From: a virus
Length of the DNA: 22,595 nucleotides
Strand: one strand, 5' to 3'
Virus record (IMG/VR): IMGVR_UViG_3300018424_010264
Location: 1 to 22,595 of that record
Part shown: positions 2,926 through 17,575 of the stretch, piece after piece
Layout of the letters: every line of letters starts with the position of its first letter
Numbering within the stretch: position 1 is the first letter of the stretch
The notes under the pieces: model-generated
What the model saw: only the letters and a program-made list of their open reading frames with translations
Told to the model about the DNA's origin: nothing
Databases searched by the model: none
Position numbers and translations under genes: made by a program

Positions 2926-4485
2926 TTATCCTAACGCAATTGATAGTGCAATAGCATCATCTGATGTTGCAACATTAGCTGGAAGTGAATAACTAACAAC
3001 ACCAGTTGTTGAGTTGTAGCTTAGATCCCCACCAGCTGAAATTGCTGCCCGAGCTGTTGGTGTAATAGATGAATAAAAATTTTCATCGTCATTTAAAGCT
3101 GCTGCTAACTCGTTCAAAGTATCTAATGCAGCTGGAGCTCCACCAATTAAATTATTAATTTCTGTATCAACATAAGATTCAGTGGCATAGCTATTTGTAG
3201 TTAAATAGTTACCAACTCTCGTATCTGTGTAATATAAATTAGTAGAACCTTCTGATAAGTTGTCTGTATCTTTTGCAGCTAATCTTGTATCAAATGCAGA
3301 ATTTACTCTTGCTGCTGTGTAATAAAGATTATTACATTCGGTTAAATCTGCAGTTGTTTTTGTAGCTAATCTTGTATCAAATGCTGAATTAACTCTTGCA
3401 GTTGTATAATATAAATTAGTAGAACCTTCTGATAAGTTATCTGTAGATCTACAATTGAAATCAGTTGCAAAATCAGAAGATTTATAAGTTGTTACAGAAA
3501 ATTGACCAGATGATGAATTATAATTTAAATCACCAGAAGCAGAAAAATGAGCTCTTGCTTCTGCAGCGCTTGGTCCAGTATAATAAATTACACCTGTGGC
3601 TCCATTATAACACATGGATCCATCACCGCCATTATCCGTTACAGAAACGGCACATCTTGCTCTTGCATCTGTATAATAAAGATTAGTAGAACCTTCAGTT
3701 ATTTCATCGGTATTGTCTTTAGTTTCAATCTGCGATTGAACATAAGATTGCGTTGCATAACTATTTGATGTTAAGTAATTACCAACTCTTGCATCTGTAT
3801 AATAAAGATTAGTAGAACCTTCAGAAATAGAATCAGTATCTGCTGGTTCAGTATAAGAAATTACACCAGTTGAAGCATTATAGCTTAATGAACCAGAAAC
3901 CGAAATTGATTGCCTTGCTCTACATTGTGTAAAGTAAAGATTAGTAGAACCTTCAGTAATTTCATCAGAATTATCTTTAGTTTCAATCTGTGATTGAACA
4001 TAAGACTGAGTAGCATAACTATTATTACTTAGGTATGTAGCAACCCGCGCATCAGTGTAATATTGATTTGTAGAACCTTCACTTAAGTTATCAGTATCTT
4101 TATTTGCTAAATTATTATCAAAATAAGTTCCAAAATCACTAATTGCTAATTTTGTAGCAATAGAGTTATTTACAGTTGTAGAAAAAGAAGCGTCATCATT
4201 TAATGCAGCTGCTAGTTCATTTAATGTATTAAGAGCATCTGGTGCAGTATCAATTAAATTAGAAACTGCGGTATCAACATAAGACTCAGTGGCAAAATTT
4301 AATGTTCCCCATTCTAACCCAGTCGCTCCACTATTTACTTTTAAATACTGGCCAGTTGACCCAAGGCAAGTAAGACCAGTACCGCCATGACTGTATCCAA
4401 CTGCTTCTCCAGTTTGGAATTCGGCAAGACCAGTAGCATTCCCGCTACAATCAAATACTGTTCTAATCGGCGTTTTTATAGTCAT
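2926..4485 (-). CDS. Repeat-rich tail-fibre / structural protein
   Basis: This 519-residue fibre-type protein was assigned from its repeats. Residues of about 130-428 hold at least six copies of a block built around DNLSEGSTNLYYTDARV, and a second block (SYATQSYVQSQIETKDN) occurs twice. A third unit (NLI..AP.AL.TLNELAAALNDD) occurs near residues 77-98 and 445-467. Such repeats are common in fibres of marine T4-like phages and form extended trimeric beta structure in fibres generally. Seven cysteines are present (13, 40, 188, 278, 292, 345, 384), several at positions where sister repeats carry Ser, Thr or Asn. No catalytic domain is visible. The start has an AGGGAAG site. A virion fibre role is inferred from family resemblance and from its place beside the neck genes. 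Confidence 0.75.
   Translation of the reverse strand: MTIKTPIRTVFDCSGNATGLAEFQTGEAVGYSHGGTGLTCLGSTGQYLKVNSGATGLEWGTLNFATESYVDTAVSNLIDTAPDALNTLNELAAALNDDASFSTTVNNSIATKLAISDFGTYFDNNLANKDTDNLSEGSTNQYYTDARVATYLSNNSYATQSYVQSQIETKDNSDEITEGSTNLYFTQCRARQSISVSGSLSYNASTGVISYTEPADTDSISEGSTNLYYTDARVGNYLTSNSYATQSYVQSQIETKDNTDEITEGSTNLYYTDARARCAVSVTDNGGDGSMCYNGATGVIYYTGPSAAEARAHFSASGDLNYNSSSGQFSVTTYKSSDFATDFNCRSTDNLSEGSTNLYYTTARVNSAFDTRLATKTTADLTECNNLYYTAARVNSAFDTRLAAKDTDNLSEGSTNLYYTDTRVGNYLTTNSYATESYVDTEINNLIGGAPAALDTLNELAAALNDDENFYSSITPTARAAISAGGDLSYNSTTGVVSYSLPANVATSDDAIALSIALG
3202..4098 (-). repeat. Degenerate tandem repeats inside the fibre gene
   Basis: These imperfect direct repeats encode the DNLSEGSTNLYYT-type blocks. 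They can be read on the plus strand as recurring 'ataaagattagtagaacct' or 'taaattagtagaaccttc' strings near 3227, 3412, 3680, 3797 and 3936. The nucleotide repeats are well conserved, so recombination between copies could change fibre length. Confidence 0.8.
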
Positions 4486-7419: not shown

Positions 7420-8280
7420 ATGATCAGCGTGATTGGTGATATTATTATAGATGAATATTGGCATGGAAAAACCACTAGGCTTTCGCCAGAAGCACCCGTG
7501 CCAATTGTAGAACTTGGTGCAAAACATATTTCGTTAGGAGGCGCATCTAACGTTTATGCCAACTTAAAATCCCTTACAAAATCTGTCAACTTATATGGTT
7601 TAGTTCAAAAAGAATATTTAGAGCATTTTAATGATAAAACGCATCTTGTAGATACTCCTAAAATGCCAGTAAAAATAAGAGTTCTTTCAGAATCTCACTA
7701 TGTTACACGAATCGATAATGAAGAATATATGGATAATAATCCTTTAATAGACCATTTTGTTAGTAGTTCAAGAGGATGGAAAGAAAATGATATATTTTTT
7801 ATATCAGATTATGCAAAAGGAACCATTGCACATCCAGATGCTATTATAAATTATTTAAGAATTCATTCTCAAAAAGTTATTGTAGATCCAAAAGTACACT
7901 TATCTAAATATAGTGGAGCATGGATACTAAAGCCAAATAGAAAAGAATTTGAAGAATATGCTGGAGAATCTACTAATATAAAAGGTATAAAACAAAAAGC
8001 TATAAAAGCTAGAAAAGAACTAAATGTAGATCATTTAGTAATTACCTTATCGGAACAAGGTGTATTATGGGTGTCAGAAGATACTCAATTACATATTCCA
8101 ACTCAGGCTAAAAGTGTTTATGACGTTACGGGAGCAGGTGATACTTTTGGTGCAGTTTTAGCTTATGCTTTAGATCAAAATATGACTATGGAAGAATCTC
8201 TTAAATTAGCAAACAAAGCTGCAGCTAAAGCTGTTTCGAAACAGGGAACATACGTAATTCAACCAAAGGATTTAAAATGA
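7420..8280 (+). CDS. hldA: D-glycero-beta-D-manno-heptose-7-phosphate kinase (HldA / RfaE domain I type)
   Basis: This enzyme phosphorylates D-glycero-D-manno-heptose 7-phosphate at C1, the second step of ADP-heptose synthesis. The protein has 286 residues and is a PfkB/ribokinase-family sugar kinase. The N-terminal GDIIIDEYWHG and SPEAPVPIVE segments are diagnostic for RfaE/HldE kinases, as is the LGGASNVYANL glycine loop. The anion-hole and catalytic-base motif TGAGDTF lies near residues 237-243 (Asp241). It is slightly shorter than the kinase half of E. coli HldE (about 318). The start ATG has AGGA 7 bases upstream. The stop TGA overlaps the next ATG (ATGA). In this phage the two halves of bifunctional HldE are separate genes. 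Confidence in the family is high; in the exact substrate, good because of the neighbours. Confidence 0.9.
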   Translation: MISVIGDIIIDEYWHGKTTRLSPEAPVPIVELGAKHISLGGASNVYANLKSLTKSVNLYGLVQKEYLEHFNDKTHLVDTPKMPVKIRVLSESHYVTRIDNEEYMDNNPLIDHFVSSSRGWKENDIFFISDYAKGTIAHPDAIINYLRIHSQKVIVDPKVHLSKYSGAWILKPNRKEFEEYAGESTNIKGIKQKAIKARKELNVDHLVITLSEQGVLWVSEDTQLHIPTQAKSVYDVTGAGDTFGAVLAYALDQNMTMEESLKLANKAAAKAVSKQGTYVIQPKDLK

Positions 8281-8675
8281 GAATAGTTTTCACAAACGGT
8301 TGCTTTGATATATTACATAGAGGTCATGTTGAATATTTAGAAGCATCTAGTTTGCTTGGAGATTATTTAATTATTGGCTTAAATTCAGATGAATCAATAA
8401 AAAGACTAAAGGGTTCATCAAGGCCAATAAACAATCAAGATGATAGAAAATATGTATTAGAAAGATTAGATTGTGTTAATAAAGTAATTATTTTTGACGA
8501 AGATACACCTTATGAATTAATTAAAAAACTAAAACCAAATGTAATTACAAAGGGCGGTGACTATAAAGTTGAAGAAGTTGCTGGTCATGACCTTGTAGAA
8601 AAGACATATATATTACCATTCAAAGATGGATATTCCACAACCAATATGATTAAAAGGATAAATTATGAGACTTGA
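8277..8675 (+). CDS. hldC: D-glycero-beta-D-manno-heptose 1-phosphate adenylyltransferase (HldC / RfaE domain II type)
   Basis: This enzyme transfers AMP from ATP to heptose 1-phosphate, giving ADP-D-glycero-D-manno-heptose. It is a 132-residue cytidylyltransferase-fold protein. The N-terminal TNGCFDILHRGHVEYL contains the nucleotide-binding HxGH motif (His14, His17). A conserved NSDESIKRLKGSSRPINNQ segment follows (residues about 38-56), and GYSTTNMIKRI near residues 118-128 is the second nucleotide-binding motif. Length and motifs match the C-terminal half of E. coli HldE. AAAGGA (8265-8270) precedes the start. It overlaps hldA by 4 bases and the cupin gene by 11 bases. Confidence 0.9.
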   Translation: MRIVFTNGCFDILHRGHVEYLEASSLLGDYLIIGLNSDESIKRLKGSSRPINNQDDRKYVLERLDCVNKVIIFDEDTPYELIKKLKPNVITKGGDYKVEEVAGHDLVEKTYILPFKDGYSTTNMIKRINYET

Positions 8676-9024
8676 AGGATTTGTTGAAAAGGGCTGGGGT
8701 CATGAGCTTATCTGGGCAACCAATGATAAGTATTGTGGCAAATTCCTAAAATTCAATGAAGGTGCTAAATTTAGTATGCACTTCCATCGTGAAAAAGATG
8801 AAACTTGGTATGTCCTTGATGGAAAATTTATTGTTGAATGGATTGATACCAAAGACGCAACTGTTCATAAAAAAGAATTGAATGAAGGTGATAGTTGGCA
8901 CAATCCTCCATTACTTCCTCATAGAGTTTATTGTATAATGGCGGGAACTTTAATCGAAGTTTCAACAGCAGATTCTGTGGAAGATAACTATCGTGTTATG
9001 AAAGGTGACTCACAAAATGGGTAG
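8665..9024 (+). CDS. Single-domain cupin, sugar-phosphate-isomerase-like
   Basis: This 119-residue cupin resembles the C-terminal cupin of type II mannose-6-phosphate isomerases. The first cupin motif is complete: His39 and His41 in SMHFHREKDETWYVLDG, Glu46, then Gly53. The second has His86 in PPLLPHRV. A metal site (2 His, 1 Glu, 1 His) is therefore intact. It opens with EGFVEKGWGHELIW, the 'KxWGxE' start typical of these cupins. Its place between the heptose adenylyltransferase and phosphatase genes, with overlaps on both sides, implies a role in the same sugar pathway. Possible jobs are isomerising or epimerising a sugar phosphate, or supplying the missing GmhA step, but no such activity is shown by sequence. 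Confidence 0.75.
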   Translation: MRLEGFVEKGWGHELIWATNDKYCGKFLKFNEGAKFSMHFHREKDETWYVLDGKFIVEWIDTKDATVHKKELNEGDSWHNPPLLPHRVYCIMAGTLIEVSTADSVEDNYRVMKGDSQNG

Positions 9025-9745
9025 ATTTAGCTCTGATACTATTGAAGCAAATCCCGTTTCTAACAATGGTATTGCTTCATATAGTACCAACCAATATAAA
9101 CCTCAAGGTGGAATGTCTCAAGGTCCAACTGAAGAACAAATGCGATTACAAGAAATGCAAGCATCTTGGCCTCAAGTATTTCCAAAATCGATTATTGGCT
9201 TAGATCGCGATGGAGTAATTAATTTTGATAGAGGCCATTATCTTACTAAAATAGAAGAATGGGAACCAATTCCAGGATCTCTTGAAGCCATTCGTATGAT
9301 GAGATTAAAAGGATATAAAGTAGTTATTCTAACAAACCAAGGTGGAATAACTAAAGGCTTGCAAACTCATGAACAGGTAGAAGCTATTCACCAACATATG
9401 ATGCAGGTTTTTGGTGATGCAGGAATTTTTTCAATAGATGGTATGTTTTATTCTGAATCATCTTTAAAGGATGATTATTATGCTAAGCCAAATCTTGGAA
9501 TGTTTCATCGAACCGAAAAAGAAATATTCGGTAATAAACATAGATTTAAAAAAGGTGGATTCTATGTTGGTGATAAAATGAGTGATTTGAAAGCAGCATA
9601 TAAAATTGGTGCAACTCCTATTCTTGTAAAAACGGGTCATGGAGAAGATACACACCAAGCTTTAAAAAAATACTCAGCAGAAAAAATCCGTAAAAAAACT
9701 AAAGTATTTGATTCACTATTAGATTTTGCTAAGGCACTTAAATGA
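9017..9745 (+). CDS. gmhB: D-glycero-beta-D-manno-heptose 1,7-bisphosphate 7-phosphatase (GmhB-like, HAD family)
   Basis: GmhB removes the 7-phosphate from heptose 1,7-bisphosphate before adenylylation. From the ATG at 9017 the protein has 242 residues. A GTG at 9005 would add four, but AAAGG at 9001-9005 fits the ATG better. HAD motifs are intact: DRDGVIN with nucleophile and acid Asp63/Asp65, VVILTNQGG as motif II, and VGDKMSDLKAA as motif IV. Two oddities stand out. There is a roughly 58-residue polar, Gln/Asn/Ser-rich N-terminal extension not present in E. coli GmhB (191 residues). The zinc-loop Cys/His residues of E. coli GmhB are also missing: the region after DGMFYSE has no cysteine. 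It overlaps the cupin gene by 8 bases and hldD by 4 (ATGA). Confidence 0.82.
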   Translation: MGRFSSDTIEANPVSNNGIASYSTNQYKPQGGMSQGPTEEQMRLQEMQASWPQVFPKSIIGLDRDGVINFDRGHYLTKIEEWEPIPGSLEAIRMMRLKGYKVVILTNQGGITKGLQTHEQVEAIHQHMMQVFGDAGIFSIDGMFYSESSLKDDYYAKPNLGMFHRTEKEIFGNKHRFKKGGFYVGDKMSDLKAAYKIGATPILVKTGHGEDTHQALKKYSAEKIRKKTKVFDSLLDFAKALK

Positions 9746-10647
9746 TTATTGTAACAGGCGGATTCGGCTTTATCGGATCAAATATTATTCGCAACTTAAA
9801 TAAAAGAGGTCAAACAAATATTTTTGTTGTTGATGATCTTGAAAACGGCCACAAATTTAAAAATCTTGCAGATTGTGAATTTAATGACTATTTTGATGTT
9901 GAATCGTTTTTTGATGAATTTCCAGAGCATCTTTGGGAGCAAGTAACTCAAATTTACCATGAAGGAGCTATTTCTTCAACCACTGAGTGGAATGGTAAAC
10001 TTGTTATGGAAAGAAATTATAAGTTTTCTGACAAATTGCTTAATAAAGCAATGGAGTATAAAGTACCATTTTCCTATGCTTCCTCGGCTTCTGTATATGG
10101 ACCCACAACGCATTTTATTGAAGATGGTCAATTACAACCTTTAAATATGTATGCTTATTCAAAATACCTTTTTGATAAAAAGGTTGAAAGGCTTATGTCT
10201 TTAGACTGGTATCAAAATTCTCCATATGTAATACAGGGTTACCGATATTTTAATGTTTATGGAGATGGTGAAGAACATAAACAAGATCAAGCATCACCTG
10301 TACATAAATTTATGAAGCAAGCTTTAGAACAAGGCGTGATTAAAGTATTTGAAGGATCTGAAAATTTTAGAAGAGATTTTATAAATGCTGAGGATATTGC
10401 AATACTTAAAATTGAAATGCTAAATAGAAAGATTTCTGGCATTTTTAATGCAGGAACTGGTCAAGCTATTTCTTTTATGGATGTTGCTAATTTAGTTTCT
10501 CGCAAAACTGGGGCAAGAATAGAAAAAATTCCATTTCCAGAACATCTAAAAGGTCACTATCAAGAATACACTCAAGCTAATACAAGTAAATTACAAACAA
10601 TTGGATGTCCGGTAGCTTTTAGATCAGTTGCAGAATATTTAAGATAA
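9742..10647 (+). CDS. hldD: ADP-L-glycero-D-manno-heptose 6-epimerase (HldD)
   Basis: HldD inverts C6 of ADP-D-glycero-D-manno-heptose to give the L-glycero form used by heptosyltransferases. This 301-residue protein is an extended short-chain dehydrogenase. The N-terminal VTGGFGFIGSN holds the NAD(P)-binding GxxGxxG (Gly6, 9, 12). The catalytic YxxxK is Tyr137 to Lys141 (YAYSK). Several stretches follow E. coli HldD closely: HEGAISSTTEWNGK, GYRYFNVYG, KVFEGSENFRRDF, and the C-terminal IPFPEHLKGHYQEYTQA. The length is near that of E. coli HldD (about 310). It ends the operon at a TAA (10645-10647) that runs into the A-run of the convergent terminator. This is the most secure assignment of the pathway. 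Confidence 0.95.
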   Translation: MIIVTGGFGFIGSNIIRNLNKRGQTNIFVVDDLENGHKFKNLADCEFNDYFDVESFFDEFPEHLWEQVTQIYHEGAISSTTEWNGKLVMERNYKFSDKLLNKAMEYKVPFSYASSASVYGPTTHFIEDGQLQPLNMYAYSKYLFDKKVERLMSLDWYQNSPYVIQGYRYFNVYGDGEEHKQDQASPVHKFMKQALEQGVIKVFEGSENFRRDFINAEDIAILKIEMLNRKISGIFNAGTGQAISFMDVANLVSRKTGARIEKIPFPEHLKGHYQEYTQANTSKLQTIGCPVAFRSVAEYLR

Positions 10648-10699: not shown

Positions 10700-12517
10700 T
10701 TATGCAGCTTCCTCAGTAGATTCCTCTACCTCAGTATCATCTTCCTTTAGAGAAAGATTAGTTTCGCACTTAACCAATTTACCAATCTCTGGTAAATACA
10801 TATAGTCAAGTGCAGAATTTCTTAACGTATGAATTGCATCATCAATTGTTTCAACTAATGGTTCGCCTGCTAAATTAAAGCTTGTATTAAACAAAATTGG
10901 AACTTTAGTAATTTCGCGAAATGCATCAATTAAGTTATAATAGTTTTCATTTTGTTCTTTAGTTACTGTTTGAATACGGCAAGTTTTATCTACATGAACA
11001 ATAGAAGGAATTTCATCTATTTTAGATTCTCTTGCATCTACCGCATACATCATATATGGAGATTCTTCCATTCCTGCCATATTGAACCAGTCATTTGCAA
11101 ATTCTGCCATCATAGATCCTGCAAATGGTCTAAACCATTCCCGACCTTTTACTTTATTTACTGTAGCTTTACCACTAGGATCTCTTGGATCATATAAAAT
11201 AGAACGATTTCCAAGAGCCCGCGGGCCAGCTTCTGATCTACCTTGGAAAATAGTTACAATATTTCTATCTGCAATCATTTGAGCAACATCTGCTGGAGTT
11301 ACATCAGACAATTCGCAATCATCATATTGTTCTAAATTATATGTAGATGGATCATATTGTGGACCAAGATACAAAGTATTTAATGGTTCATTTTCAAAGT
11401 TTTCATTTTCTTCAATTTTATTTTTCATATACCAAGCAAATTTTGCTAATCCAATCGCCGTTCCACCATCATGAGATACTGGATCTACAAAGAAATTAAT
11501 ATTGTTATCTTTATCTTTAATATCTCGAAGGTATTTGTAATTTGCAACGCAATTAAGTCCATAGCCACCTGCTAATACTACGTTTTTAATTCCAGTTTGC
11601 TCTGAAACACCTTCAATCATATTAGAAATAGTAAGACTAGTTAAATGCTGCACATGCCAAGCTACATCTGGCAAAATAGAAGGCATTTTTTCTTCATCTT
11701 TATGCCAAGAATGAGGATCTTCTTCATCCCAACCTTCAATTAATTGTGGATATCTTTGAACATCAAGTAATGCTCCGGCTGGATATTGTGGAATTACAGC
11801 GTTTTTATTACCTCTATTCATTTCAAATAATTCAGGAACGTTTTGGTTATATTTTCCATAAGAGGCTAAACCCATAGTTTTTCCGGCTTCAATAAAACCA
11901 AATCCAAGATAATGAGTAACTGCTTCATATACTTTTACTAATCCAGCAGTATTGTCAAAACTGGCTAAACCAACGTTGGTTTTCATTCCTTCATTATGCC
12001 CATATGATTTCCAAATAGGATGAATTCCATTATCTTTATTTGCTATAAAAATAGATTCGGTTTCCCAACCTTTAGATACAGGAGAATTGCTATCTTCTGG
12101 ATCATGGTTCATTCTATGATAAGATCCAGCGCCATCAACTACAATACAAATTGCTTCATCAAATCCTGAGTTGAAAAATGCTCCAGCCGCATGCCCTAAA
12201 TGGTGTTCATTACTTAAGTTTGTAATTCTGACTTTAGGATTGTATTTACGAACAAGAGCTGCCCATGAGCTTTCGCCAGTCCAAGGAATTACGTGCTCTT
12301 TATAATCATCAGTGGATCCAGTTCCACCAATAAGAAATTCATCAACATGGTATTCTTCTAGAACTTGAATCATAGCCCTATATGGATTACCATCATATTT
12401 TGATCTAGATAAACGTTCTTCTTCTACATAACGTTCTAATTTACCATCTACTAAAAATGCCATAGATCCATTATGACCTGGATTAATAGCCATAATATTA
12501 TAAGTTTTATCGCTCAT
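10700..12517 (-). CDS. NodU/TobZ-family O-carbamoyltransferase
   Basis: Enzymes of this family make carbamoyl-adenylate from carbamoyl phosphate and ATP and transfer the carbamoyl group to a sugar hydroxyl. The 605-residue protein has both domains. The N-terminal Kae1-like domain has the metal and substrate residues His105 and His109 (EHHLGHAAGAF), Asp128 (VVDGAGS) and Asp350 (SHDGGTA), plus LAGGYGLNCVAN near 315-326. The YrdC-like C-terminal domain has GRSEAGPRALGNRSI (426-440) and FNTSFNLAGEPLV (543-555). The last 20 residues are acidic. It is coupled to the upstream GT9 gene (TAATG) and is the last gene before the terminator. A relative (WapO) carbamoylates O7 of heptose in Pseudomonas aeruginosa core lipopolysaccharide, which fits the heptose context; the acceptor here is inferred. 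Confidence 0.92.
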   Translation of the reverse strand: MSDKTYNIMAINPGHNGSMAFLVDGKLERYVEEERLSRSKYDGNPYRAMIQVLEEYHVDEFLIGGTGSTDDYKEHVIPWTGESSWAALVRKYNPKVRITNLSNEHHLGHAAGAFFNSGFDEAICIVVDGAGSYHRMNHDPEDSNSPVSKGWETESIFIANKDNGIHPIWKSYGHNEGMKTNVGLASFDNTAGLVKVYEAVTHYLGFGFIEAGKTMGLASYGKYNQNVPELFEMNRGNKNAVIPQYPAGALLDVQRYPQLIEGWDEEDPHSWHKDEEKMPSILPDVAWHVQHLTSLTISNMIEGVSEQTGIKNVVLAGGYGLNCVANYKYLRDIKDKDNNINFFVDPVSHDGGTAIGLAKFAWYMKNKIEENENFENEPLNTLYLGPQYDPSTYNLEQYDDCELSDVTPADVAQMIADRNIVTIFQGRSEAGPRALGNRSILYDPRDPSGKATVNKVKGREWFRPFAGSMMAEFANDWFNMAGMEESPYMMYAVDARESKIDEIPSIVHVDKTCRIQTVTKEQNENYYNLIDAFREITKVPILFNTSFNLAGEPLVETIDDAIHTLRNSALDYMYLPEIGKLVKCETNLSLKEDDTEVEESTEEAA

Positions 12518-13945: not shown

Positions 13946-16900
13946 TTAATTCCAATATACAACAACTAGACCAGTACCACCTGCTCCGCAAAGTGTACCG
14001 CCGCCACCATAACCAGGTGTACCTCTTGGGAAGATACCACCATTATAAGCATTATTTGTAACAATTTGCTGATCACAAAGTAAGCCCATGCAACCAGATT
14101 TACCACCTCCCTGAGAAAATCCAGGAGCAATAGTGGTTGAAGAACCTTGAATACAAATTTGAGGAGAAGCTCCAATTATGCATTCAGTTGATGAGAATAA
14201 ATACTCATCATCTATTTTTGGTCCATTATAAATTTCTGGTACATATGGGCTAGATCCACTTCCTCCACCAGATTCAACACTTTTCTTAATTGCTCGAGCT
14301 ACATTACCGCAACAAGCATTCTGATAGCTATAATTCTGACACTGGCATCCCGCGGATAGCCCACATATTATATTACCATTTCCACCTCCGCCAATACATG
14401 GCGCAACAAATTTAAAATAACATTGGCTATCTTGATTAGGATTCGGAATAATGAAAAATTTGCATTCAGGCTCAGTACTATCATCTAAACAAGCCGTAAA
14501 ATAACTACGGCAAGCCGCATTGGGAGAATAACAGAATGCCTCATATGCATGATATGGCGCACAGTTACCAGTACAACAAGCACAGATCTTGCCAGCTTCA
14601 CACGTGTTCAAATAGTATTGAGTGGTTGATGCCGATCCACCAGATAAGCAGGTTTTTTGGCCAACAAAATTATTTGAAACTGAGTTAATATACAAACCAG
14701 CAGCAGATCCAACATTCAATGTAGTAGCTAGCTTAGGCTGATCGCCACCAGTATCTGCGCCTCTATAATATTCACACTCATATGTTAAACCTTGCTTTCT
14801 TTCTAACTCGGCCATCATACAAGCATAAAGCTTAAAGGAATAACAAAGTACAGCGCATTTTTCAGGAGTCCAACACATATTAGCGCATCCAAAACAGAAG
14901 TGAGTATTAATCACGCAGTTACAGCAACAATCTCCGCAATTATCCATATAAGATAATGGCAATATACAGCAATTGCAGCAGCATGTGGTTCCACCATCTA
15001 CATAAATGTCACATTTAACTGCCCAGCATTTTCTTAAATACCATGCTGCAAAGTTACCTTTATATTCATGTAGAATTTCATTAAATGTGTCTTGGCTCAT
15101 AACTGATGAACCACCACCTGTAGAAATAAACTTAGGAATATCTACTCCAGATGGATCAGCTCCAGGACCTGTTGTCAAGTAAGATCCAGTTACTTGGCAT
15201 GGAATATTACCACATGAATTAGGTCCACCAGCAGAACCTGGAAGAACTAAATCCAGGCCATTACCACTACAAACTCCATAAGTTGTAGCATTACACCACC
15301 AATTACCGCAATCATATCCTGAACTAGTACAACAGTGACAAACAGAAATACTTTTATCTGTACATGTAGATCTCATAATAAACTGTGGGGCGCACCCAGT
15401 ACAATACATACTACCATTACAATAGTATTGATAACATTTACCGCTTAAAAATGTAAGAGCAGTCAAGGTTGATTGGAATATTCCTCTTAGTCCACATACA
15501 TGATCTAATACACAAACCGCGGCATTTCTCAACCATACGTTGGGGGTTGAATAACTAACAAAATCATCTATTGTCATACAAGGTCTAATTAAACATGTAC
15601 AATTCATATTTGCAGCAAGATCGCAAGAATCCCAACTACTACAAGGGCGAGAACATGGTGTACCAGTACAAACTTCAGCGCATTGAACCGCGCAATGTTG
15701 ATAGCAACAAATCTTTAAACAATTATTATATGAAGTAGATGTTAAATCGCATGCATTACACCCAACTTCATGACCATTTAAATGGAATGGGAAATGGAAT
15801 CTCCAGTTACTGGTTGCTGCCAAATTACCGCAATAGCAAAGGCACATACCATGACCTCTAGACCATCCATCACAACCCTCACTACCATTAGAACACATTT
15901 GGCACCAGAAACAAGTACCTGCACAGCCTGGAGTTCTATTCCTACAATTTAGACTACAATATGTTTCTTTAGAAAATCCATTCCAAGGATAGCAGCATAA
16001 ATTTATGGCTGGGTTTACTGGAGCTGGAGTAAAGTCAACATAATTAAATAAATTACTATTATAATAAACACATCCAGGGAAGTTACCAGTTCTTCTACCT
16101 ACACTAACATCATCTGGATCAGTTTCAAATGTAACACCTTCTTCATACCAATGAGATAAAGAAGTTTCTGGTATTGCATACCAAGGGTGTTGACCCCAGC
16201 AGACTGTTGCACCATCACAGCAATAACGACCATTACCACAATTGTAGAAGAAATGCGCTGTATAGCAATTCTGCGCAAGACAATAATGTAATATAGGTTT
16301 TGTTGAAGTAGATGGCCCGGTTCCAACAAATTCGGCACACGCTCCAGGTTTACCATCGCCTAAAGGAGAACCAGAAGAAGGACCGGAATATGGCAATTCA
16401 ACTTCAGCTCTAAAATCGCCACTAGAATTAAATTTACTTGGAATATGGTAGTTGGAAGTTTTACAACTAGCTTCAAATGCTGCCTTGCAATGTCCATACC
16501 ATGTATTAACGCTACTATCTCTGGAACACCACATAAAACATGCAACAGTATCTTTTACAAGACATGTACACCCTTGAGTATGAAGGTTACACCAGCGAAC
16601 AGTGTTAAAGCATTCCCAAGCACAGAATCCTTCTAAGCAGGCAAGAACTGAATTTTGGAAAGGCAAGCAGCAGGCTGCACAAGCGCTTACCATAAAATAG
16701 GCCGTTGCTTCCAAGCACGAACAATTCGAATAACGATCTATTACTGGGCAACTAGTGTTGCTGGTGCAACAATCACCGCAAGCGCAGCCATTACTGCAAG
16801 TAGAACTGATATAATCAACTTCATTTGAAACAATAGAAGTTGTTTGACCAGCACCACCCGTATAGTTTTTATCTCCGCCTATACCACATCCAGGCTTTTG

Positions 16901-17575
16901 AGCAATACAAAAGATATTGTTTCCAGATGCAGTTTCATAGCATATTGCGCCGGATGGTATTCTTGTACAACTTAGTCTACATTTATACCCTGTGCCGCAA
17001 CAGCAACATATAGTGGGGAATCGACAAACACCACTTGAACCACTGACTGACGTTGATGTTATATCGTATCCACAACATCCAATTCCACCGGGAAATAATT
17101 CACAACAACAAAGGCAAGGTGCTTGAGCTCCGGTAGCAGTTATTTCAGAACCAAAGGAAGAAGATTCTTCATCATTACCTACAACAACACTAAACGTATC
17201 TCCTGGAGATACAGAGATTGTTTTTTCTGCGTATCCTCCTCCAGATCCAGCATATGCATAAAGGCAAGTTTTTAATTTTGGCAAACAATGAAAAGTACAC
17301 GCATAACCACATATGCATGCTGATAAGCAATTTGCATAGCAGCAACAGCCACTAACAAAACCGCGGGCGAAAGTGCATGTATTACAATGAGTAATTGTGC
17401 TTACCGTTGCACCTTCAATAAACCCTGTAGACCCTGCGGATCCACCTCCAACAGCAAGTGCCTTAATTGACGTAACACCAGATGGCACCGTGAAGGTATA
17501 CGTTCCAGGAGTGGAATAAACACATCTATTCGCAAAACCCGTAGGTACCTCTGGAGTTGCTATATATCTAGCCAT
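13946..17575 (-). CDS. Giant cysteine-rich, glycine-rich fibre/adhesin-type protein
   Basis: This 1209-residue protein has 139 cysteines by hand count (11.5%), including runs such as CCCC (190-193), CCCNCC (865-870) and CCCNC (883-887). The N-terminal 135 residues follow the glycine-rich adhesin pattern: PGTYTFTVPSGVTSIKALAV, then a GSGGGYAEKTISVSPGDTFSVVVG closing. The C-terminus ends GGGGTLCGAGGTGLVVVYWN, the usual end of such phage glycine-rich fibre tips. Cysteine-free stretches occur at 105-153, 372-412, 460-501, 794-849 and 935-975. No signal peptide, no zinc-finger spacing and no repeated unit is apparent. It lies between a small virion-type gene and the acidic-tail gene, with AGGAG before the ATG. 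A host-contact fibre role is likely by ends and context. What the cysteines do (disulfides, metal, or a modified residue) is unknown. Local GC looks higher than in the neighbours. Confidence 0.8.
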   Translation of the reverse strand: MARYIATPEVPTGFANRCVYSTPGTYTFTVPSGVTSIKALAVGGGSAGSTGFIEGATVSTITHCNTCTFARGFVSGCCCYANCLSACICGYACTFHCLPKLKTCLYAYAGSGGGYAEKTISVSPGDTFSVVVGNDEESSSFGSEITATGAQAPCLCCCELFPGGIGCCGYDITSTSVSGSSGVCRFPTICCCCGTGYKCRLSCTRIPSGAICYETASGNNIFCIAQKPGCGIGGDKNYTGGAGQTTSIVSNEVDYISSTCSNGCACGDCCTSNTSCPVIDRYSNCSCLEATAYFMVSACAACCLPFQNSVLACLEGFCAWECFNTVRWCNLHTQGCTCLVKDTVACFMWCSRDSSVNTWYGHCKAAFEASCKTSNYHIPSKFNSSGDFRAEVELPYSGPSSGSPLGDGKPGACAEFVGTGPSTSTKPILHYCLAQNCYTAHFFYNCGNGRYCCDGATVCWGQHPWYAIPETSLSHWYEEGVTFETDPDDVSVGRRTGNFPGCVYYNSNLFNYVDFTPAPVNPAINLCCYPWNGFSKETYCSLNCRNRTPGCAGTCFWCQMCSNGSEGCDGWSRGHGMCLCYCGNLAATSNWRFHFPFHLNGHEVGCNACDLTSTSYNNCLKICCYQHCAVQCAEVCTGTPCSRPCSSWDSCDLAANMNCTCLIRPCMTIDDFVSYSTPNVWLRNAAVCVLDHVCGLRGIFQSTLTALTFLSGKCYQYYCNGSMYCTGCAPQFIMRSTCTDKSISVCHCCTSSGYDCGNWWCNATTYGVCSGNGLDLVLPGSAGGPNSCGNIPCQVTGSYLTTGPGADPSGVDIPKFISTGGGSSVMSQDTFNEILHEYKGNFAAWYLRKCWAVKCDIYVDGGTTCCCNCCILPLSYMDNCGDCCCNCVINTHFCFGCANMCWTPEKCAVLCYSFKLYACMMAELERKQGLTYECEYYRGADTGGDQPKLATTLNVGSAAGLYINSVSNNFVGQKTCLSGGSASTTQYYLNTCEAGKICACCTGNCAPYHAYEAFCYSPNAACRSYFTACLDDSTEPECKFFIIPNPNQDSQCYFKFVAPCIGGGGNGNIICGLSAGCQCQNYSYQNACCGNVARAIKKSVESGGGSGSSPYVPEIYNGPKIDDEYLFSSTECIIGASPQICIQGSSTTIAPGFSQGGGKSGCMGLLCDQQIVTNNAYNGGIFPRGTPGYGGGGTLCGAGGTGLVVVYWN

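Follow-up and report, generated by a model that had tools for sequence, protein, structure and literature searches.

The window considered here, a viral DNA of 22,595 nucleotides, carries on one strand genes for a cysteine-rich, glycine-rich fibre-like protein, a small protein, a glycosyltransferase and a carbamoyltransferase, and on the other a set of genes related to heptose synthesis (Table 1). The fibre reading frame is uninterrupted and begins with ATG. The small protein encoded directly after it is probably, by analogy, a tail-fibre assembly chaperone; it has no family match above cutoff in Pfam or PHROGs, and a search for relatives gave none in viral contigs and one weak match in phages. 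The start of the carbamoyltransferase gene overlaps the stop of the transferase gene. Among the heptose-pathway genes only HldD passes its curated cutoff. Elsewhere in the window, positions 2926-4485 encode a fibre-like protein in which units of the ITEGSTNLYYTDARV type recur.

Table 1. Features of the window and the basis of their assignment
Feature	Coordinates	Strand	Basis or remarks
Cysteine-rich, glycine-rich fibre	13946..17575	-	1209 aa, 11.5% Cys; framework strands with Cys-rich insertions
Probable tail-fibre assembly chaperone, 122 aa	13561..13929	-	Position, acidic C-terminus; analogy to Pam3 gp25
Divergent GT9-fold heptosyltransferase, 313 aa	12517..13458	-	phrog_8954 ("unknown function"); model fold
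NodU/Nol-type carbamoyltransferase	10700..12517	-	PF16861 205 bits, PF02543, phrog_1601
Heptose-7-phosphate kinase (HldE N-domain)	7420..8280	+	TIGR02198 250 bits, below curated cutoff 345
Heptose-1-phosphate adenylyltransferase (HldE C-domain)	8277..8675	+	TIGR02199 178 bits, cutoff 181.5
Cupin	8665..9024	+	PF07883; recurs in transferase loci
GmhB-like heptose-bisphosphate phosphatase	9005..9745	+	PRK08942 134 bits, below cutoff
ADP-heptose 6-epimerase (HldD)	9742..10647	+	TIGR02197 309.8 bits, above cutoff 274.6

The initial annotation of this DNA had counted about 139 cysteines in the fibre, spread over residues 18-1196, with the runs CCCC, CCCNCC and CCCNC. The recount agrees, giving 139 and placing these runs at residues 190, 865 and 883. 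The five cysteine-free stretches that it named (105-153, 372-412, 460-501, 794-849 and 935-975) are exact, but the list is incomplete, as residues 19-63 and 1090-1131 form stretches of similar length. In T4-like viral contigs, ordinary fibre-like ORFs contain a median of 0.4% cysteine (95th percentile 1.2%), and the binomial probability of at least 139 cysteines among 1209 residues is about 1e-140 at a background of about 0.47%, so the content lies far above chance. The remaining virion ORFs on the same strand of the window contain 0-1.35%. The spacing of the cysteines is approximately geometric, with a slight excess at gaps 1 and 4, and a repeat search found no tandem unit, as the annotation had stated. 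Its further observation that zinc-finger or EGF-like spacing is lacking is matched by searches of Pfam, PHROGs and PDB sequences, which returned no zinc, iron-sulfur or EGF family, and HMM and PDB sequence searches found no homology of the core to a zinc or iron-sulfur family that might account for the cysteines. The CCC and CxC clusters could suggest that these residues bind metal (zinc, iron-sulfur or toxic metals), yet with no metal-family match, an i+3 cysteine enrichment of just 0.26 log2, and cysteines spread through unrelated families, we regard this as highly improbable.

Direct searches with the window fibre found no homologue in phages (best E = 1) or in viral contigs, and no meaningful match among PDB sequences. 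Pfam gave Gly_rich_2 alone, below threshold, at residues 22-52, and in PHROGs residues 18-56 weakly matched a minor tail protein and one PHROG without a name. BLAST alignments reveal a framework, TYTFTVPSGVTSIKALAVGGG ... AGSGGGYAEKTISVSPGDTFSVVVG, common to the window fibre and those of loci L053, L127, L129 and L063, which is interrupted by cysteine-rich insertions whose lengths differ widely. Framework strands in the window fibre include residues 17-51, 105-153 (a cysteine-free stretch that is mostly framework) and the C-terminal 1168-1209, and the glycine-rich framework at both ends is shared with other phage fibres, which bears out the earlier description of the protein as fibre-like. The supposition that other marine T4-like phages encode cysteine-rich, glycine-rich proteins was also correct: the cyanophages S-SSM7, Sf-FS3, P-SSM2, S-CAM1 and S-CAM3 each encode two to three such fibres just upstream of the transferase, carbamoyltransferase and heptose genes.

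An AlphaFold model of a related cysteine-rich family, A3 (phrog_4205), is of moderate confidence (pLDDT 73.5), and its best PDB matches are the fibre gp24 of cyanophage Pam3 (7ypx, E 6.6e-7) followed by the Bxb1 tail tip. The Pam3 fibre has a conserved glycine-rich stem and a variable distal tip, proposed to bind the receptor, and is assembled by a chaperone (Pam3 paper). Glycine-rich tips of this kind, which according to the same paper include gp38 of Salmonella phage, share with the present fibres a glycine-rich framework, variable loops and a small chaperone-like gene that comes after the fibre gene; the Pam3 paper makes no mention of cysteine, whereas the cysteine-rich fibres here reach 13.5%. 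Overall, the 1209-residue protein is very likely a receptor-binding fibre.

The model of the transferase is of high confidence (pLDDT 96.4) and has a GT-B fold, with the LPS heptosyltransferases WaaF and WaaC, the latter bound to ADP-heptose, and the protein heptosyltransferase TibC as its best PDB matches (Foldseek E 1.2e-10 to 1psw and 9e-10 to 2gt1). The similarity surfaced by fold comparison; a PDB sequence search with the transferase profile gave nothing meaningful, and PF01075 matches 16 of 21 family members, at best with 1.2e-5 and for the window member with merely 0.19. The enzyme thus resembles WaaC and WaaF in predicted fold and in a C-terminal Asp-Ser/Thr...His motif, where GCDSxGQH aligns with VDTGLSH and retains the Asp equivalent to WaaC D261, but differs from them in having a fibre gene as its partner, in barely detectable sequence similarity and in one catalytic residue. 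In WaaC the catalytic base is proposed to be Asp13, a residue "present in all the heptosyltransferases" covered by the review, and its replacement in D13A causes a 4688-fold loss (PMC5713226). This residue aligns with Arg (Arg16 in the window enzyme) in 51 of 52 phage transferases and in those of SBP1, HJ05 and D505. Because no general base is needed for a thiolate, the change from Asp to Arg fits a cysteine acceptor; alternatively, another base could serve, or the reaction could be altered. Residue 224 of the transferase, adjacent to the conserved Asp-Ser motif (GCDS, alignment A4), is Cys in all 52 phage enzymes and Val or Asn in WaaC and WaaF. Relatives occur in at least 594 stretches of viral contigs, compared with nine among 84,980 prokaryote species genomes, and these nine are probably phage sequence, since each lies in a MAG contig that also bears cysteine-rich ORFs.

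Comparison across loci connects this enzyme to the composition of the fibre. Among loci with at least 4 kb upstream of the transferase, 85 of 96 encode a fibre with more than 3.5% cysteine and 11 do not, compared with one of 69 transferase-free controls, which were anchored on gp13 rather than at matched fibre positions; after clustering of the transferases at 75% identity the figure is 48 of 53. In the other direction, all 54 loci that were reached from one cysteine-rich fibre family and had 4 kb downstream of the fibre carry the transferase, although these loci are closely related. Cysteine-rich ORFs lie 1-6 kb upstream of the transferase and, within these loci, almost nowhere else: ORFs above 6% cysteine make up 35-45% at 1-4 kb upstream versus 0-2% beyond 1 kb downstream. 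The sole control exception (L160 7517-8665) is a fibre of a transferase-free phage whose cysteines cluster in one CxC/CxxC-rich domain instead of being spread out. At L073, L109 and L117 the transferase is accompanied by small CxxCxxCC proteins that look YkgJ-like on inspection. The 159 cysteine-rich fibres fall into 25 BLAST families, which indicates that cysteine content rather than fold tracks the transferase. These comparisons strongly show that fibre cysteine content is tied to the adjoining transferase in many unrelated aquatic phages, and the two genes are almost certainly linked in function.

Related fibres from phages with and without the enzyme also differ in cysteine. In the Vibrio N4-like phages (Schitoviridae) SBP1, D505 and K479 a distant transferase adjoins a tail protein with 41, 41 and 39 cysteines, and in Aeromonas phage HJ05 one with 23. 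Homologues of the SBP1 fibre in five transferase-free phages have a single cysteine among about 72 residues facing SBP1 cysteines, a total that includes certain positions repeatedly, through different homologues, and the residues there are S, D, V, E, K, A, T, G, N and others. The A3-type fibre of the transferase-free S-CREM1 (S-CREM1_67) has one cysteine in 267 residues. Such cysteine-poor members of the same domain family, and the polar or varied residues that replace the cysteines, speak against the suggestion that the fibre stays reduced in the cell and becomes locked by disulfides after lysis into oxic water. The dense cysteines would suit such a lock, and so would the best-aligned fibre family, where about half of the cysteines stand in conserved columns and eight are nearly invariant; in that same family, however, 36 of 58 members have an odd cysteine count, as does the window fibre, and a heptosyltransferase partner is not predicted. 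We therefore hold a disulfide lock to be improbable. Of the three uses of the cysteines that the initial annotation offered, genomic context favours modification sites, while disulfides and a metal load fit less well because neither explains why cysteine composition follows a single heptosyltransferase gene through fibre families that are unrelated.

The reading that we prefer, and consider rather probable, is that the fibre cysteines are acceptors for hyper-S-heptosylation, the addition of an unusual seven-carbon sugar, by the adjoining GT9-type enzyme. The evidence argues strongly for the fibre as the substrate of the transferase and, to a moderate degree, for Cys rather than Ser or Thr as the acceptor. 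Against S-heptosylation, conserved cysteine columns would also be expected from disulfides or metal sites. A search for an acceptor sequence motif around the cysteines found none, and in one fibre member 6 of 32 cysteines lie within strands of the predicted secondary structure, a small difference from the 8.5 expected.

Known GT9 protein heptosyltransferases modify serine (PMC4358343), and the likeness of the phage fold to TibC allows that the fibre is heptosylated on Ser or Thr, as TibC and AAH do on autotransporter Ser, with the cysteines employed otherwise, for example in disulfides; the nearly invariant cysteine columns would accord with such a separate role. Yet Cys goes up from 0.4% in control fibres to 9.6% in the cysteine-rich ones, where Ser and Thr are lower, and the tracking of the transferase by cysteine content over 25 families is left unexplained, making Ser/Thr heptosylation unlikely. 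As proposed, the phage system would share with TibC and AAH a GT9-like fold, an ADP-heptose donor and an adhesin hyperglycosylated in the cytoplasm, but it differs in its fibre substrate, in the proposed Cys acceptor, in Arg for the catalytic Asp, and in having its own heptose pathway and carbamoyltransferase. Bacterial autotransporter heptosyltransferases (BAHT) act on Ser of an autotransporter passenger, whereas the neighbour of the phage transferase is a phage fibre, and the three cysteines in the whole window enzyme are too few for the four-cysteine iron finger of that family. The phage enzyme would thus work in the manner of BAHT heptosylation but is not a BAHT member, because both the iron finger and the catalytic Asp are lacking. 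S-glycosylated glycocins, made by ThgS-type S-glycosyltransferases, provide a precedent for sugar on Cys of a ribosomal product, but these are small bacteriocins modified by other glycosyltransferases at one to few sites, against about 100 in the phage proposal.

HypF, to which the carbamoyltransferase is related, carries out S-carbamoylation of HypE. The phage enzyme might accordingly modify the fibre thiols directly, leaving the transferase in another role, and its occurrence in 103 of 128 transferase loci and none of 80 controls, together with a median fibre cysteine content of 9.5% with the carbamoyltransferase and 4.1% without, would agree with this. However, the Vibrio and Aeromonas phages have cysteine-enriched fibres and the transferase with no carbamoyltransferase annotated alongside, and phage Mosig has a carbamoyltransferase, no transferase, and no cysteine-rich ORF in the 40 kb examined; direct S-carbamoylation is therefore very improbable.

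ADP-heptose is the putative donor for the transferase, as suggested by the pathway genes. Homologues of the HldE C-domain and HldD are present in all five transferase-bearing cyanophages and in one marine single-cell virus contig that also carries the transferase, and absent from the four transferase-bearing Vibrio and Aeromonas phages examined. Vibrio and Aeromonas synthesise ADP-heptose themselves, as a precursor of the LPS core. Sf-FS3 infects Synechococcus WH8102. The LPS of this strain contains neither heptose nor KDO (PMC4515613). This distribution is as predicted if the phages supply what their hosts lack, although the sample is small. Within the DNA examined at each locus, pathway genes were seen in about 47-50 of 128 transferase loci; the remaining phages must obtain ADP-heptose from the host or through genes of their own at another site, or else transfer a different sugar. 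In S-SSM7, the gene T4-GC306 (L007 43055-43390), annotated as phosphoheptose isomerase, matches the capsule phosphatase subfamily TIGR01689 below cutoff and is probably misnamed.

LPS-type genes have been noted in cyanophages before, with function unknown and possibly as "stuffer DNA" (PMC3037559), and an altered cell surface has been suggested (PMC2984593). On that published reading the transferase and heptose genes would remodel the host surface, and the cysteine-rich fibres would adjoin them for other reasons. The association of transferase and fibre in both directions, the lack of heptose and KDO in WH8102 LPS, and S-SM2, which has heptose genes, no such transferase and, over the 133 of its 191 kb that were covered, cysteine-poor fibres, make this very unlikely. 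The heptose genes of S-SM2 (L322, 143.6-163.3 kb) lie in an LPS-like cluster far from the fibres and without a GT9 gene.

In the S-heptosylation scheme, the 1209-residue protein would be a tail fibre, or the tip of one, that binds the receptor, with acceptor cysteines mostly in loops, as insertions between the glycine-rich framework strands. The adjoining GT9-type heptosyltransferase would hyperglycosylate these in the cytoplasm, using ADP-heptose from the phage's own cassette and capping the thiols before lysis. The neighbouring carbamoyltransferase might then O-carbamoylate the fibre heptose further, and the resulting dense carbohydrate surface on the tip might be used in host recognition or protect it; on these last two points the genomic evidence is no more than suggestive. 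We give about even chances to a widespread, hitherto unrecognised phage system in which fibre tips have evolved towards about 10% cysteine in order to receive S-linked (carbamoyl-)heptose from a dedicated GT9 enzyme without the customary catalytic base, the pathway being carried where the host lacks ADP-heptose.

No report of fibre S-glycosylation or heptosylation was found in the literature searched, subscription papers and preprints lying largely outside its scope. If correct, the proposal would describe a new viral way of sugar-coating the host-recognition tip, with dense S-glycosylation of cysteines on a virion adhesin; in bacteria, the literature found describes this modification in small bacteriocins only. 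It would give a role to the cyanophage heptose and carbamoyltransferase genes, left open in 2010 (PMC3037559), and identify two PHROG families so far listed without a function, 8954 as the transferase and 4205 as the fibre. It would also bear on how abundant marine phages recognise their hosts.
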